This document shows, one piece after another, positions 46,020 through 55,097 of a stretch of 64,000 bases of DNA (position 1 is the stretch's first letter; each line of letters opens with the position of its first letter). The notes beneath the pieces were generated by a model. The model had not been told where the DNA came from. It searched no databases and was given only the letters and a program-made list of their open reading frames with translations. Position numbers and translations under genes: made by a program. Location of the stretch: NCBI RefSeq assembly GCF_030389965.1, contig NZ_CP128399.1, forward strand, positions 2,470,934 to 2,534,933, read 5' to 3'. This DNA comes from Candidatus Chlorohelix allophototropha. GTDB lineage: Bacteria; Chloroflexota; Chloroflexia; Chloroheliales; Chloroheliaceae.

Positions 46020-49000
46020 TCACACAGATGGTTTCGGCACCTCAACCGGAAGATTTGTTACAGTTTTAGCAGTATCCCCAGATTTTTCGGTATCGGAAAC
46101 AGGCAGGTAAAAATAAATGGTAGTGCCTTTTCCAAGTTCCGATTCTACCCCCAAATAGCCATTGTGTCGGTTGATTATCGAAAAGGCAACCGTCAAACCC
46201 AAACCGGAGCTTTTTTCTTTAGTGGTAAAATATGGCTCGAAAATACGCCCTAGAATATTAGACGGGATGCCGATTCCCTCATCTGCCATACTCACCTTCA
46301 CATAGTTACCATCGGGTAGGGGTATCTCTGAATTCAAACTTATATGCACAATGTTTTCGGCTTTAACCGTCAGAGTGCCACCGCTGGGCATTGCTTGTAC
46401 CGCGTTCAATACCAAGTTTTGTATGACTTGATTGATTTGTCCTTCATCAATATGAACCTGCCACAAATCTTCGACGCAGCTTAGCTTATAAGCTATAGTT
46501 GTACCGCGCAACATGATATAGAGCCATTCCTCCAGCAGAGGCGGGAGTAGCTCAGCATTTTTAATCGGCGCGCCACCACTCGCAAAGGTTAAAAGTTTTG
46601 CAGTTAGTTCCCTAGAACGATATGCTGCCATTTCGGTTTCGTTAAGCAATTCTCTTAAAGACGCGATATTCGCGATATTCGCATTGTCGTCCAAATCCAT
46701 TCTTGCCAACCCCAGATTACCCACAACCACTTCCAGCATATTATTGAAGTCGTGCGCAATACCGCCTGCTAGCAATCCCAAGCTTTCCAGTTTCTGTTGT
46801 TCCTGTAACTTTCGCCGAGTAATATCCCCAAAATAGAGGGTAAACCCGCCATCCTCTGCCGGGTACATATTAATTTCATACCACTTCTCGGTCGAAGCTG
46901 CAAAAGCTTCAAAATCAACCGCTTTGCGCTCCTTTTGAGCTTTATTAAATACTTCATGCACCGTACTTGACTCGCGCAGTACCGGAAATTCTTCCAAGAT
47001 ATTTTTACCAAGTAAGTCTTCCTGATTTTTTCCCAAAATTTCTTCCGCTTGCAAGTTGGCATAGGTAATGAGACCATTTGAATCCACCGCAAAAAAGGCA
47101 TCGCTGATGCTCTCCAGAATGCCGATAACTTTCTGGTTCGACTTTAATAAAGCCAACTCGGCTTCTTTGCGCTCGGTAATATCACGAATGACCACTACGC
47201 CCGATATAAATTTATTTTTAGAGTCCAGTACCGGCTGCCCAACCGCTTCATACCAGCGAAACGCTCCATCCTTTAAGCGGGCGGTAAAGATAGTTTTAAA
47301 TTTCTCTCCCCGTGCGGCACGGGCTTGAGGGATAGTGGTTGCGGTCAGCTTCGTTTTTCTATCCTGATTGAAAAGTGTTGCATTAGAATTCACAAATTGT
47401 TCCCGATATGCCTCATTGGTCACCAGCATTGTACCTTCCGGTCTTACTACCACTACCGCATCATTCATACTGGCGAGAATCATAGAGAGTTGAGTACGTT
47501 CCTGCTCGCTTAGTTGTTTTTGCGTTTCCAGCGTTTTGGTCATCTTTTGTAGTTCGGTAGTGCGGATCGAAAGATCGGAATTGGCAGTATTTAGCTCCTC
47601 AATCGTAGCTTGCAACTCCTCATTAAGAGTCTCCAATTCCTCGTTGGTAGCTTGCAATTCCTCGTTCAAAGTCTCCGCTTCTTCGGTAGCCGCCTGTGCT
47701 TCTTCATTTCTCAGAAGAAATTCCTCATTCAGCCGTCGCATTTCTACAACGGCATTATTCAGACGCTCATTTTCCACTAACAAAGAGGTGTTGGTTGCTA
47801 CAAGAATTTCCATTTGTTTAGTATGGCGCAACATTGTTTCTTCTGCCTGCTTTTTCGCCTCTTCTAGCGCCTTATTAGTCTCCTCATAGCGAGAATTAGT
47901 ATATTCGAGTTCTTTATTGCTAACCTTTAAAGCTTCCAAGGATTGTTTCAATTGGATAGCGAGGTTACGCTGCTCGTTATTTGCCTGTTCCAGTTCAAGC
48001 CGATAGCGATACGAATCGGTAATATCGGTTATAAGAATTAATGCCTGCGAGTTCGGGAAATTCTTTGATTCTTCTGATACCAACTGAGGATAGCACTTGA
48101 TTTGCAAATAAGTCGGCTCACCCGTGGTTATATGGGGTATTTCCACATCCGTTAATTCGGTTACCGTTCTATCACGTAAAGCGGTAGTAATAAGCTTGGC
48201 TAGTTCTCGCTCCGGCAAGCTTTGCGCCAGATGTATCAAATCCTCACCGACTGCGGCAGAATGAACCCCTAGCAAACGACGGGCAGCAGAGTTGATTTCC
48301 TGAATATCAAAATGTCGATCAACCACGATTACCCCTATCGGTAGATTCAACAGCAGAGTTTCTTTAGAGGAACGATTGTGCAAGACTTCCAAATGAGCGC
48401 GATCGAGTTCAAGGTTGGGTATGCGCACGCGACGCAGATCAGGGCGTGGCAGCGCTTGAGTAGGGATTGTGGCGGGAAAACGCAGCGGTTGGAGTATCCG
48501 CCGTTGCCCAAATCTCCTGAAAATCTTATGAGTAGGATGTTCCGGTAAAAACAAGTCAGAAAGAGGGTTAGCCGTTTCGGTTTTGCCGAGCGCAAGGAAA
48601 CCGCCATCCCGCAACGAAAAGGCAAACAATTGCAGCGCATATTGTTGCAAATCTCGCGAAAAATAAATCAGGACATTGCGACATACTACTAGGTCAATGC
48701 GGGGGAAAGGTGAACGTTGACCCAAATCGTGTTCGCCGAAAACTACCAAGCTACGTACCTGCTTTTTTATCTCGAAACTATTATCTAATTCATTGAAATA
48801 TGCTCTTATAAGTTCAGGCGGGAATTTTTGCAAACTTTGCTTGGGATACACCCCCTGTCGCGCGAAGGCGATAGCGGCGCTATCCAAATCGGTAGCAAAA
48901 ATCTTGACGGTGAACTCGTTAAGTTCCTCTCCCAAAACCTCGGCAACCAGAATCGCCAGCGAATAAGCCTCCTCACCGGTGGCGCAACCTGCCGACCAGA

Positions 49001-49901
49001 TACGCAACTCTTTGCTATGGGCGCGGCTATATTCCACTAATTCCGGTAAAATCTGCTCGCCCAAATAGTCGAAAAATTCCGGGTCTCGCCTAAATTCGGT
49101 TACTTTAATTAGGAAGTTGTTAACCAAAAGCCCGTATTCTGAGGGGTTATCTTTGAGGTATGTAATGTAGCCCTTCAAATCTATAGAGTTAGTGGCAGCA
49201 ATTCGCCGTTGAATACGCCGCAGGATTGTTGCCGGTTTGTACGAGCGGAAATCCAAACCGCTGTGCTCTCTTACTAACTGGAGAAAGGATTGTAACTCCC
49301 CTTCGCGGGCAGAATGGGAAGTTACTTGGATTCCGGCAACTAGATCGGAAATGATTGAACCGATTCGGTTGAGATCGGCAATTATATCAACCGATTGAGG
49401 GGAAACTGCCATGGGCATGCCCGGAAAAGCCGCAGTAATCGGGTCTTGAATTATTACTGTACCGCCCAAGCGGCTAACCTCAAATGCACCCAAACTACCG
49501 TCCGAACCTGTGCCGGTCAAAATAACCGCGATAAGCTTCTCACCATAGATTTGCGCCGCGCTAGTGAGTAGTAGATCAATTGAAGGTTGGGAATGCCCGT
49601 TGGAAACATTCAGCACCTCCACTTCATCCTCATTAATCTGCACATGGCGGTTGGAGGGCACTACATAAACTGTGCCGGGGAGCAACTTCACACGGTCGGT
49701 AACGGTAACAACCGCTAATTGAGTGTGGCGAGCAAGTATTTCTTCAAGGTGGCTGGGGCGTTTTGGGTCAAGATGTTGCGCAATTACCAAAGGGAGGGGA
49801 AATTCTTTGGAAAGTGAGGCAACTAGGCTTGTCAAAGCTTCAATCCCACCCGCAGATGCCCCGACTACAACTAGCTGAAAAAGCTGTTCAGAATCAGGCA
49901 T
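46020..49901 (-). CDS. CheB-CheR-PAS hybrid sensor histidine kinase
   Basis: The 1293-residue signalling protein begins with a CheB methylesterase domain (VVVGASAGGIEAL, Ser16; His43 in AQHLDP). A CheR methyltransferase follows (to ~480, IWSAGCATGEEAYSLA and VVCRNVLIYFS), then a PAS domain, a long coiled coil (about 645-815, with repeated ETLNEELQATNEELET-like heptads) and two PAS domains. It closes with an HDFNN histidine box (GGIAHDFNN) and a HATPase (NLVLNAVQAMP, GIGIP, FTTKEKSSGLGL). No receiver domain or chemoreceptor is adjacent, so its role is probably global signalling. Length matches known CheB/CheR-PAS kinases. Confidence 0.92.
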   Translation of the reverse strand: MPDSEQLFQLVVVGASAGGIEALTSLVASLSKEFPLPLVIAQHLDPKRPSHLEEILARHTQLAVVTVTDRVKLLPGTVYVVPSNRHVQINEDEVEVLNVSNGHSQPSIDLLLTSAAQIYGEKLIAVILTGTGSDGSLGAFEVSRLGGTVIIQDPITAAFPGMPMAVSPQSVDIIADLNRIGSIISDLVAGIQVTSHSAREGELQSFLQLVREHSGLDFRSYKPATILRRIQRRIAATNSIDLKGYITYLKDNPSEYGLLVNNFLIKVTEFRRDPEFFDYLGEQILPELVEYSRAHSKELRIWSAGCATGEEAYSLAILVAEVLGEELNEFTVKIFATDLDSAAIAFARQGVYPKQSLQKFPPELIRAYFNELDNSFEIKKQVRSLVVFGEHDLGQRSPFPRIDLVVCRNVLIYFSRDLQQYALQLFAFSLRDGGFLALGKTETANPLSDLFLPEHPTHKIFRRFGQRRILQPLRFPATIPTQALPRPDLRRVRIPNLELDRAHLEVLHNRSSKETLLLNLPIGVIVVDRHFDIQEINSAARRLLGVHSAAVGEDLIHLAQSLPERELAKLITTALRDRTVTELTDVEIPHITTGEPTYLQIKCYPQLVSEESKNFPNSQALILITDITDSYRYRLELEQANNEQRNLAIQLKQSLEALKVSNKELEYTNSRYEETNKALEEAKKQAEETMLRHTKQMEILVATNTSLLVENERLNNAVVEMRRLNEEFLLRNEEAQAATEEAETLNEELQATNEELETLNEELQATIEELNTANSDLSIRTTELQKMTKTLETQKQLSEQERTQLSMILASMNDAVVVVRPEGTMLVTNEAYREQFVNSNATLFNQDRKTKLTATTIPQARAARGEKFKTIFTARLKDGAFRWYEAVGQPVLDSKNKFISGVVVIRDITERKEAELALLKSNQKVIGILESISDAFFAVDSNGLITYANLQAEEILGKNQEDLLGKNILEEFPVLRESSTVHEVFNKAQKERKAVDFEAFAASTEKWYEINMYPAEDGGFTLYFGDITRRKLQEQQKLESLGLLAGGIAHDFNNMLEVVVGNLGLARMDLDDNANIANIASLRELLNETEMAAYRSRELTAKLLTFASGGAPIKNAELLPPLLEEWLYIMLRGTTIAYKLSCVEDLWQVHIDEGQINQVIQNLVLNAVQAMPSGGTLTVKAENIVHISLNSEIPLPDGNYVKVSMADEGIGIPSNILGRIFEPYFTTKEKSSGLGLTVAFSIINRHNGYLGVESELGKGTTIYFYLPVSDTEKSGDTAKTVTNLPVEVPKPSV

Positions 49902-50134: not shown

Positions 50135-51328
50135 TTAAGCTTTCTCAGCCGCCTTGCTTTCCTTCTTCTCATCCGTCAAAACGACCCATAAGAAAAGATG
50201 CTTGGAAGGGATAGATACTACCATTTTGGTGACTTCCCAGAAAGAGGCGCGTTCATCCAAAAAGCGAAACACGCTGCGAGCTTGATTATACTTGAACATC
50301 CCGGTAAAGACTCCCTTCATCTTTCCGGTAAAGCGGTTCATTGCTTCCAGCATCAACGAATCCAGCACATAGTAGAAGGGCTTAGGACGAGGCACTTTAA
50401 ATGGATGGTTGTATTTCAAGAGCGAGGCGACAATTGCCTCCGTATCATTTTGAATCCGGGTAAAAGCATAGCCGGAGGAAGGTTTGACCATCCCCCCTGC
50501 CGTACCGATAGACATCACAAAACGCCCACGCCGCCGCTTGAAATGGCGATCAGACAGCACAAGGGCGCCGCCCTCCAACGTTTCCACCTTGTAATCCGGT
50601 ATTTTCAGAACATCTTTCACATAGGAATGCATTATCCCATCATACTCGGTATGCCTTAAACCTACATATTCAATCAAGGCGCTTCGTGGCGAAAAGGGTA
50701 ATAGATAGAAAAAACGCATATCGCCCGATTGAGGGATTCGGAAATCAAAGAGCGTGGCGCTATCGGGATTGAAAGTGTCAGTGGAAGTCTCAATGATCCA
50801 GCCTTTGAAATATTGCCTTAGAACTTGGTTGCCAAATTCCGGTTTATGTTTCAAGTCCGCCGGTCTAAAGCGACTATCGAAAACCCATTGCCCGTAGAAT
50901 CTTTGCCCTTCAATATATACATATGCGCCGTATATGCCGCTTTCAACCCGCTCAACCCTACCCTGCGCCAAATGCACATTGGGTAAACCGGAGAGCTTAT
51001 CCCACATGAAGCGGTAAAAATCTATACCCCTGATAGTCTTGTAGGTCAAATCACCCAAATCAATATCTTTCTCAAAATCCTCGCTGGCAAATCTTATTTT
51101 TTTCCAAGAGTGATACACAATCTCATCAAAAGGGGTGGGGCGGTCAGTCCAAAAACTTAAAGTGCGATCGTTCCGGTTTTTCAGGCGCTGCTCAACTACC
51201 AACACTGAGCGATCAGAAAGGGGGCTGTTTGCCAAGCGATATAGCAGGGATAATCCGGCTATACCACCGCCAATAATAATATAGTCATACTTTTTCGTAC
51301 TATCTGCTTCAAAATACCCTTCAGCCAT
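50135..51328 (-). CDS. crtY: Lycopene cyclase (CrtY type)
   Basis: The 397-residue flavoprotein starts with the FAD-binding motif YDYIIIGGGIAGLSLLYRL and ERLKNRNDRTLSFW-like region of CrtY cyclases (VEQRLKNRNDRTLSFWTD). YYLLPFSPRSALIEYVG-type sequence and GTAGGMVKPSSGYAFTRIQ are the other conserved blocks. It would cyclise lycopene ends to beta-rings at the membrane. ATG 51328 with GGAG upstream is preferred over GTG 51343. No other crt gene is nearby. Confidence 0.85.
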   Translation of the reverse strand: MAEGYFEADSTKKYDYIIIGGGIAGLSLLYRLANSPLSDRSVLVVEQRLKNRNDRTLSFWTDRPTPFDEIVYHSWKKIRFASEDFEKDIDLGDLTYKTIRGIDFYRFMWDKLSGLPNVHLAQGRVERVESGIYGAYVYIEGQRFYGQWVFDSRFRPADLKHKPEFGNQVLRQYFKGWIIETSTDTFNPDSATLFDFRIPQSGDMRFFYLLPFSPRSALIEYVGLRHTEYDGIMHSYVKDVLKIPDYKVETLEGGALVLSDRHFKRRRGRFVMSIGTAGGMVKPSSGYAFTRIQNDTEAIVASLLKYNHPFKVPRPKPFYYVLDSLMLEAMNRFTGKMKGVFTGMFKYNQARSVFRFLDERASFWEVTKMVVSIPSKHLFLWVVLTDEKKESKAAEKA

Positions 51329-51454
51329 TTTTTTCTCCGCCACTATGGATTGCCTCGCTGAAATTTAGACAACTAGGTAAGCAGTTGAGTTTCGTGCAGC
51401 GCTGATAAGATTATACGAAAAAATAAGTCGGTTTTGAACCGATATAAACTAAAG

Positions 51455-52916: not shown

Positions 52917-55097
52917 GTGTCAACCGGCGATTTAAAGCAATTAGGGCAATATGAAATCAGAGGATTGCTAGGACGTGGCAGTGTCGCTAAAGTTTATCGA
53001 GGCTTCCAGCAAAGCCTAAACCGAGAAGTAGCTATAAAAGTTATTTCCAGCCAATTTGTAAAAGACCAAAACACTTTGGAACGTTTCAAGCGAGAGACTC
53101 AAGCCATCAAGAACCTTCGCCATCCCAATATCCTAACGATTTATGAGTTTGGTCAGGAAGGAAATAGTCCTTACCTTGTCACCGAGTTAATCAACGGGCG
53201 AACTCTTAGGGAGTATCTGGGAGAACCGCAAGATTTGCGTTTTACTTCGAAAGTGCTAAACCAATTAGCCAGCGCGCTTGATTTTGCTCATAGCAGCGGA
53301 ATTATTCATCGGGATGTAAAGCCCACAAATGTATTAATGGATGCTCGCGACCGGGTAGTTTTGAGCGATTTTGGAATTACCAGAATCTTGCAGCCGGAAG
53401 GAGCAGTAATTACAGCCGCCGGGAAGGGGCTTGGTACGCCCGAATATATGTGCCCTGAACAGGGCATAAATGAACCGCTAGACGGGCGCTCTGACCAATA
53501 TTCGCTAGGTATTATCATTTACGAAATGCTGACCGGCACAACCCCTTTCCACAGCGATACACCGCTGGCAGTATTGATGAGTCATGCCTACAAACCCTTG
53601 ACCGATCCGCTTTTAATCAATCCCAAACTGCCGCCGCAAGTCGCAGAAGTAGTCAAAAAAGCCTTAGCTAAAATACCCGCCGAACGATTTCGCACCTGTA
53701 GCGATTTCGCCAAAGCGTTTGAGCAGGCAATCAGTCCACTGTTCCCGCCCGAAAAGACTTTGCCGAATACCCAACCGTTGATACCTAGTCAGATGGGTAT
53801 TGAAACGATTGCTATTTCACCGTTGGAGCGTCCACCTACTATACCGCCAACCACAAGCGGTAATAACAGAGGAGTCACGCCCCAACCGCCTGTCAAGGCT
53901 TCCACGCCGATTCCAAAGCCTAACACGCCGATTCCACCCGGCAATTTCCCGCTAATACCACCGCCGCCTGCCACAATAGCAGCAAATTACCAACCCCCGA
54001 AGGATAAGAAGAGTCGCACCGGACTAATTATCGCAGGTGTAGTGGCGATTGTGCTAATAGCCGCAGTAATAATCGGAATCATTGTACTCACAGGTGGTAG
54101 CAATTCCGGCGCAACCACTCAAAGTGTAATTACAAACACGGTCACTGCTACCACGCCAGTCACTACTGCCAAAGCCACTACTACAAGTGCCGCTACCGCT
54201 ACAACTACGGTAGTTAATACCCTACCACCCACTACCACGCTACCACCAACCACCACCACTGTAGCCACAACCGCTACAACTACAGCAGCGCCTACCCCTA
54301 CTCTTTCCGATGCCGATGTGCAACTATCCGACACTTTGAAAAAGGTAATAGGTGGGTTACCCCCTACTGCCGCTGTTATTGTTATTCCTACCGCTACCCT
54401 GAAAATAGAGCAGAACGCCACTAAGCAAACTCCGGCGGGTAGCATAATTATGCTATGGATAGCCGCTACCCTCTTTGATGAAGAAGCTGCCGGGAGAATT
54501 AATCTAGCTGAGACTTTTACAATTAAAGCCTCTGATCAAATAGAGGGAACGGGAATACTAAAACAAGCGCAAAATGTAGGGAAAACACTGCCTTACTCGG
54601 AAATTCTGGATGATATGTTGATTTACAGCGATAATACCGCTGCCAACATAATCCTGAATCACTTGGGGGGTTTTCAGAAAATTACAGATTACCTTAAAAG
54701 TAATAACTACACCCAGACTAATATTAAAGCTAAACCCGGAACAGCCGCAGAAAAAGATAATGTAACCAGCGCGATTGATTTAGCGCTCTTTCTAGATAAC
54801 CTACTAAAAAAGAAAGTGGTTAATAGCACTAGCTCCGATAAAATGCTGGCTTCACTTAAGAGCCGCCGCGCTTTTGAGGGGAACGATACCAATTTCTTCG
54901 GACGCTTATTGCCCGATAACCTTGAATATGGTCATATCAGCGGTATTCTGCCAAATGTCAGGAATGATATAGGTTTTTATACTGGCAAAAACAGGTCGGT
55001 TATTGTGATAATTTTGTTATCAGATATTATCAATGAAGCTGACAGCGAAACAGCCATAGGTAATGTATTGGATCAGATTTTCAAAGCAGTACCTTAA
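52917..55097 (+). CDS. Transmembrane Ser/Thr protein kinase with degenerate class A beta-lactamase-like ectodomain
   Basis: The 726-residue protein has a PknB-type kinase domain (10-270: GRGSVAKVYRG, Lys41, HRDVKPTN with Asp133, DFG 151-153). A Pro-rich linker, a transmembrane helix (about 368-392) and a Thr-rich stalk (400-462) follow. The external domain (470-726) matches the beta-lactamase2 fold. Ser509 aligns with the nucleophile, SDN (571-573) with the S-D-N loop 62 residues on, and HISG (673-676) with KTG, 164 residues on, as in class A numbering. The SxxK lysine is Met512 and the KTG lysine is His673, so catalysis is unlikely. GTG start with GCAGGT upstream. Confidence 0.85.
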   Translation: MSTGDLKQLGQYEIRGLLGRGSVAKVYRGFQQSLNREVAIKVISSQFVKDQNTLERFKRETQAIKNLRHPNILTIYEFGQEGNSPYLVTELINGRTLREYLGEPQDLRFTSKVLNQLASALDFAHSSGIIHRDVKPTNVLMDARDRVVLSDFGITRILQPEGAVITAAGKGLGTPEYMCPEQGINEPLDGRSDQYSLGIIIYEMLTGTTPFHSDTPLAVLMSHAYKPLTDPLLINPKLPPQVAEVVKKALAKIPAERFRTCSDFAKAFEQAISPLFPPEKTLPNTQPLIPSQMGIETIAISPLERPPTIPPTTSGNNRGVTPQPPVKASTPIPKPNTPIPPGNFPLIPPPPATIAANYQPPKDKKSRTGLIIAGVVAIVLIAAVIIGIIVLTGGSNSGATTQSVITNTVTATTPVTTAKATTTSAATATTTVVNTLPPTTTLPPTTTTVATTATTTAAPTPTLSDADVQLSDTLKKVIGGLPPTAAVIVIPTATLKIEQNATKQTPAGSIIMLWIAATLFDEEAAGRINLAETFTIKASDQIEGTGILKQAQNVGKTLPYSEILDDMLIYSDNTAANIILNHLGGFQKITDYLKSNNYTQTNIKAKPGTAAEKDNVTSAIDLALFLDNLLKKKVVNSTSSDKMLASLKSRRAFEGNDTNFFGRLLPDNLEYGHISGILPNVRNDIGFYTGKNRSVIVIILLSDIINEADSETAIGNVLDQIFKAVP

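Follow-up and report, generated by a model that had tools for sequence, protein, structure and literature searches.

The window, by which we mean the whole analysed stretch of 64,000 nucleotides, belongs to Candidatus Chlorohelix allophototropha L227-S17, whose genome consists of five circular replicons with 46.8% GC and includes chromosomes of 2.96 and 2.45 Mb (PMC10972752). It contains an open reading frame in which a Hanks-type Ser/Thr kinase domain is followed by a single transmembrane (TM) helix, a Thr-rich stalk and a C-terminal domain resembling class A β-lactamases and the penicillin-binding protein PBP-A (Table 1). The kinase domain scores 166.3 bits against a PF00069 cut-off of 31.7, and its catalytic residues K41, HRD (131-133) and DFG (151-153) are all intact; judged by its sequence, the kinase is active. 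The C-terminal domain matches PF13354 (Beta-lactamase2) over residues 497-700 (E-value 1.2e-37) with 129.8 bits, 108 above the cut-off of 22. Since the only TM helix directly follows the basic segment KDKKSR, which marks the cytosolic side, and is itself followed by the Thr-rich stretch, the kinase should be cytosolic and the PF13354 domain should lie outside the cell. A Pfam scan found no PASTA domain in the protein, which also stayed below the NCBIfam cut-offs for PASTA kinases (NF033483, 303 versus 450 bits) and for class A β-lactamases (bla_class_A, 76.5 versus 200 bits).

Table 1. Coordinates of the kinase gene and its features in the window, and of the Bacillota gene pairs described in the text
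Feature	Position	Strand	Evidence
Whole gene, 726 aa, GTG start, stop included	52917..55097	+	ORF
Hanks-type Ser/Thr kinase domain, residues 12-259	52950..53693	+	Pfam PF00069, 1.2e-48
Single TM helix, residues about 371-393	54027..54095	+	Hydropathy scan, peak 3.3
Thr-rich stalk, residues 396-470, 31 Thr in 75	54102..54326	+	Composition
Class A β-lactamase/PBP-A-like ectodomain, residues 470-726	54324..55094	+	PF13354, AlphaFold2, Foldseek
SxxK remnant S509-I-I-M512 (Ser70 kept, Lys73 replaced by Met, ATG)	54441..54452	+	Alignment
SDN, S571-D572-N573 = Ser130-Asp131-Asn132, intact	54627..54635	+	Motif, alignment
HISG 673-676: His673 = 233, Ile674 = Lys234, Ser675 = Thr235, Gly676 = Gly236	54933..54944	+	HMM alignments
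Paired genes with disabled and intact PF13354 domains (Bacillota)	L040:4456-7675; L039:358-3568; L082:2425-5068

No cell-wall gene was found near the kinase gene, the neighbours within the window encoding a lycopene cyclase, a DUF4395 protein and a BNR-repeat protein. The lycopene cyclase gene (50135-51343, minus strand; PF05834, 2.4e-40) lies two genes off and suits a phototrophic host. Further along the minus strand, positions 46020-49901 encode a 1293-residue fusion of CheB, CheR, PAS and histidine kinase domains.

An AlphaFold2 model of the ectodomain, built on a 51-sequence alignment, reached a mean pLDDT of 95.1 and a pTM of 0.92. Its top Foldseek match in the PDB was the PF13354 protein of Sphaerobacter thermophilus (4ewf; E-value 1.8e-16, TM-score 0.82-0.83), together with PBP-A of Thermosynechococcus (2j7v; E-value 3.8e-16, TM-score 0.83), and class A β-lactamases ranked after these two. 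In class A numbering, Ser509 corresponds to Ser70, Met512 to Lys73 and the SDN triad to positions 130-132. In HMM alignments Ile674 falls on Lys/Arg234 of 4ewf (SKTG), PBP-A (HKTG), GNCA4 (DKTG) and PSE-4 (R234). The alternative that His673 occupies the site of the KTG lysine, within an HTG motif of the R61 type, was rejected, as every alignment places Ile674 on Lys234. A histidine at position 233 is also present in 28 of 118 homologues outside the sensor groups, and the occurrence of HKTG in many active homologues indicates that His673 is no stand-in for the lysine.

An equivalent of Glu166 is likewise absent from the omega loop of the window protein, where the segment KAKPGTAAEKDN lacks ExxLN. 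Since the stand-alone Chloroflexota homologues also lack Glu166, the domain seems to derive from a PBP-A-type peptidase and not from a β-lactamase. Among the class A β-lactamase motifs the protein thus retains SDN but not Lys73, Lys/Arg234 or Glu166, and of the three motifs of PBP-A-type DD-peptidases two are broken (SxxK and KTG). The best reading of these replacements, Met for the SxxK lysine and Ile for the KTG lysine, with Glu166 missing, is that the ectodomain is catalytically disabled.

The original prediction, made from the letters of the window without database searches, had described a kinase with a TM helix, a stalk and a class A-like ectodomain. Its observations are partly confirmed. 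The architecture is borne out by the Pfam matches, the intact kinase motifs, the one strong TM helix and the stalk, and the fold by the superposition of the model on 4ewf and PBP-A; the positions given for Ser509, Met512 and SDN were also correct. Both catalytic lysines are indeed lost from this protein, but the KTG lysine had been assigned to His673 instead of Ile674. The claim that the motifs are spaced as in class A enzymes needs a similar correction: HISG is present, but the distance from Ser509 to SDN is 62 residues versus 60 in standard class A numbering, similar rather than identical, and the 164-residue match to His673 arises from indels.

Relatives were sought in 61 related genomes and, at class level, in 158 genomes. 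A search of contigs with the window domain alone gave no match; the alignment-based search did. Proteins of the kinase-TM-stalk-PF13354 type were found in six other genomes, namely G001-G004, which are all other genomes searched in the family of the window, and G030 and G034 of another family, with both domains confirmed by Pfam in G001, G002, G003, G030 and G034. The ectodomains form a clade with 100/100 support. This clade is present in all five genomes of the window's family and, outside it, in three genomes of one genus (G030, G034 and, as a fragment, G547), and was absent from the remaining 150 of the 158 class genomes searched. Two of these 150, G381 and G502, exceeded the threshold solely through distant homologues that keep SxxK and the KTG lysine. 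In these genomes, from another family of the class, an intact PF13354 domain appears by eye to be fused to an M23-peptidase-like domain (G381) or to WD40-like repeats (G502; loci L117 and L216).

Position 234 is I, L or M in all nine full ectodomains of the clade and V in the G547 fragment. The Ser70-Lys73 pair, by comparison, is kept in five of the seven kinase fusions (G001-G004 and G030). Only three proteins of the Chloroflexota clade have lost Lys73: the window protein (S..M), G034 (G..S), which lacks Ser70 as well, and the G547 fragment (S..S). On the tree these losses amount to two or more events. No member of the clade departs from SDN. The 130-row alignment contains 118 homologues from outside the sensor groups. 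Without exception these have Ser70 and Lys73, and the residue at position 234, present in 115 of them, is always Lys or Arg, although these absolute counts lean towards conservation because some rows were gathered by SxxK/SDN-based patterns; the rows from genome searches are free of this bias. As read from the alignment, the loss is graded, with K234 missing throughout the clade and K73 in a few members. That loss of both lysines characterises the architecture is therefore not supported, as K73 is missing from no more than three members. Of the two motifs whose retention in homologues had been named as counter-evidence, SxxK persists in the majority of the fused homologues but KTG in none. With Ser70-Lys73 so widely retained among the fusions, the family is perhaps not entirely dead.

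The window genome also encodes two kinase-less paralogues of the ectodomain clade, which have a TPR-like segment and a zinc ribbon, respectively, at the N-terminus; both keep Ser70-Lys73. Their existence implies that control of a kinase cannot be the only use of the ectodomain. The gene of the zinc-ribbon paralogue, which has a TM helix (L159:3639-4784; G000:C2, about 100.6-101.8 kb), adjoins an FtsK/EccC-type ATPase gene; it stops abruptly at its C-terminus by a transposase ORF and was apparently truncated by an insertion.

While the ectodomains are monophyletic, the seven kinases attached to them are not: a single clade was rejected (p-AU 1.7e-4, delta lnL 234). The kinase tree requires four changes, at least three of them forced by supported branches, and hence at least three to four origins. 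A single ancestral kinase-ectodomain fusion passed on vertically is accordingly ruled out by the AU test. The closest relatives of the window kinase are two other kinases from this genome (support 100/98, best identity 61%), which carry, as judged by eye, TPR and WD40 ectodomains behind the same TM helix and Thr-rich stalk. These findings suggest that the ectodomain is a transferable input module, and its repeated joining to unrelated kinases that it is probably a sensor and not an enzyme, in line with what the original prediction had proposed. For the G003/G004 pair, dN/dS was 0.13 in the ectodomain, 0.23 in the linker and 0.04 in the kinase, rough values given the high synonymous divergence; the ectodomain value points to purifying selection.

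At least 33 Hanks-type kinases are encoded in the window genome, as is a genuine PASTA kinase, so that a role of the window protein as a stand-in for a missing PASTA kinase was discarded. The same fact means that peptidoglycan sensing may already be covered. A tandem kinase cluster, several members of which contain WD40 repeats, is located at 360-375 kb of chromid C3.

A comparable arrangement was found in Bacillota. In Desulfosporosinus acididurans (L040) and a related metagenome-assembled genome (MAG; L039), a zinc-ribbon-like N-terminus is followed by a kinase, then a TM helix and finally a PF13354 domain, in which G..Y replaces SxxK and HQTG replaces HKTG while SDN is retained. In both cases the adjoining downstream gene is that of a membrane-anchored PF13354 protein in which no motif is broken, and in L040 FHA, VWA and PP2C genes lie upstream. 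An Eubacteriales MAG (L082) encodes a kinase-less TM protein with G..F and HQVG, followed by an intact sister gene, in a neighbourhood with a PP2C gene (Pfam) and ORFs judged from their sequence to be VWA-like and kinase-like. The disabled Bacillota domains form a group with 98/95 support, whereas their union with the Chloroflexota clade has 62/77, which leaves one or two origins of these sensor domains both possible. No further match above 150 bits was obtained in the sample of 398 Bacillota genomes, and no further fusion was seen among the top-ranked matches examined from these and 396 Actinomycetota genomes; the Actinomycetota proteins among them keep SxxK.

The reading that we favour, with moderate confidence, is that the window protein is a single-pass receptor kinase whose sensor is a pseudo-DD-peptidase, probably for peptidoglycan peptides. 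The ectodomain would serve as an input module on a flexible Thr-rich stalk and would bind its ligand non-covalently and without turnover, within or close to the former active-site groove; the signal would pass through the stalk and the TM helix and alter dimerisation or activity of the kinase. The ligand would most plausibly be a peptidoglycan stem peptide or a muropeptide. This suggestion draws on the relationship to PBP-A and the analogy with PASTA kinases; with a DD-peptidase among the nearest characterised relatives, peptidoglycan peptides are likelier ligands than β-lactams. The Bacillota case, where a kinase again carries a disabled domain and has FHA, VWA and PP2C genes as well as an intact homologue for neighbours, supports the receptor reading, while the lack of cell-wall genes around the window gene counts against it. 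More tentatively, disabled PBP-A-like domains may form a recurrent class of envelope receptors that read the state of stem peptides non-covalently and that different Hanks kinases acquired on several occasions in Chloroflexota and, perhaps separately, in Bacillota.

A rival view is that the ectodomain is a structural part, relying on the fold and not on the groove, which anchors the protein in the cell wall or mediates dimerisation or protein-protein contacts. In the nearest kinases the same place is held by TPR and WD40 domains, which are typical protein-binding folds, and active-site residues differ among the members of the clade. However, SDN and, at 234, an aliphatic residue with Ser-Gly behind it are kept selectively, which suggests that the groove has been remodelled rather than neglected, and we regard a purely structural role as unlikely, if worth keeping in mind.

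The pattern of residue loss bears on a further explanation, according to which Ser70 and Ser130/Asn132 still act in a residual or altered enzyme, such as a slow esterase or peptidase, that the kinase regulates or localises. The Ser70-Lys73 pair of the five fusions and both same-genome paralogues would fit such activity, as would the invariant SDN, but K234 is lost clade-wide, E166 is absent too, the window protein has no Lys73, nor has the G547 fragment, and G034 has neither Ser70 nor Lys73. We therefore give residual catalysis only a small chance.

BlaR1 couples a class D-like domain, whose acylation pair is intact, to a metalloprotease output, and sensing of this type needs the Ser/Lys pair. 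The original prediction had invoked BlaR-like logic, and the class A/PBP fold and the retained Ser70 of the window protein would suit a receptor that binds a β-lactam without hydrolysis and signals the presence of the drug through the kinase. Such sensing, however, relies on lysine-assisted acylation of the serine, and the window protein lacks both lysines, has Met512 in place of the lysine of the acylation pair, and combines a kinase with one TM helix instead of an integral-membrane metalloprotease; nor does the window contain a second PF13354 β-lactamase-like gene. A drug receptor is thus quite improbable, and a covalent BlaR-like mechanism appears unlikely for the window protein because its acylation lysine is gone, less so for the relatives that keep SxxK. 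Gene decay or a base-calling error is hardly credible as the source of Met512 (ATG at 54450-54452) and the other changes, since, even if AAG to ATG is a single base and the ectodomain branch is long (0.88), the ORF is open, the kinase intact and the genome closed, Lys73 was lost separately in G034 and G547, and the loss of K234 is common to all members. Taken together, the interpretation in the original prediction is partly supported, its sensor but not its BlaR-like component agreeing with our results.

The pseudo-DD-peptidase receptor proposed here resembles several known systems in part. It shares with PBP-A of Thermosynechococcus elongatus (2j7v, 2j8y) the fold (TM-score about 0.82), the HxxG context of the third motif and the lack of Glu166; PBP-A, in contrast, keeps SxxK and HKTG, is an active DD-peptidase and has no kinase fusion. 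It acts as a DD-carboxy/endopeptidase, with specificity for muropeptides that are amidated (PMC11189452). The S. thermophilus protein 4ewf, also from Chloroflexota, is the best match in both sequence and fold among solved structures, but it is a stand-alone protein with SxxK and KTG kept. With BlaR1/MecR1 the window protein has in common the use of a penicillin-binding-type fold as an extracellular sensor, and differs in its class A/PBP-A-like type, the missing lysines and the kinase output. PASTA kinases (PrkC, PknB, Stk1) have the same order of N-terminal kinase, single TM helix and extracellular C-terminal part; the window protein differs in having no PASTA domain. PASTA domains recognise muropeptides (PMC6448482), and the PASTA-like logic that the original prediction had also invoked would be plausible. 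Our search of open-access literature gave no description of a kinase-PF13354 receptor architecture, and this absence is not proof.

Bacterial kinases of the receptor type are mostly known through their PASTA domains. If our reading is correct, the proteins described here would represent another route to cell-wall sensing, in which an enzyme that reads D-Ala-D-Ala was turned into a receptor for such peptides. The members that keep SxxK (G001-G004 and G030) and those that have lost it (the window protein and G034) provide a natural set for testing the role of acylation. Ca. Chlorohelix is a phototroph of the Chloroflexota that has a type I reaction centre, and the ectodomain would give it a likely envelope-sensing part.
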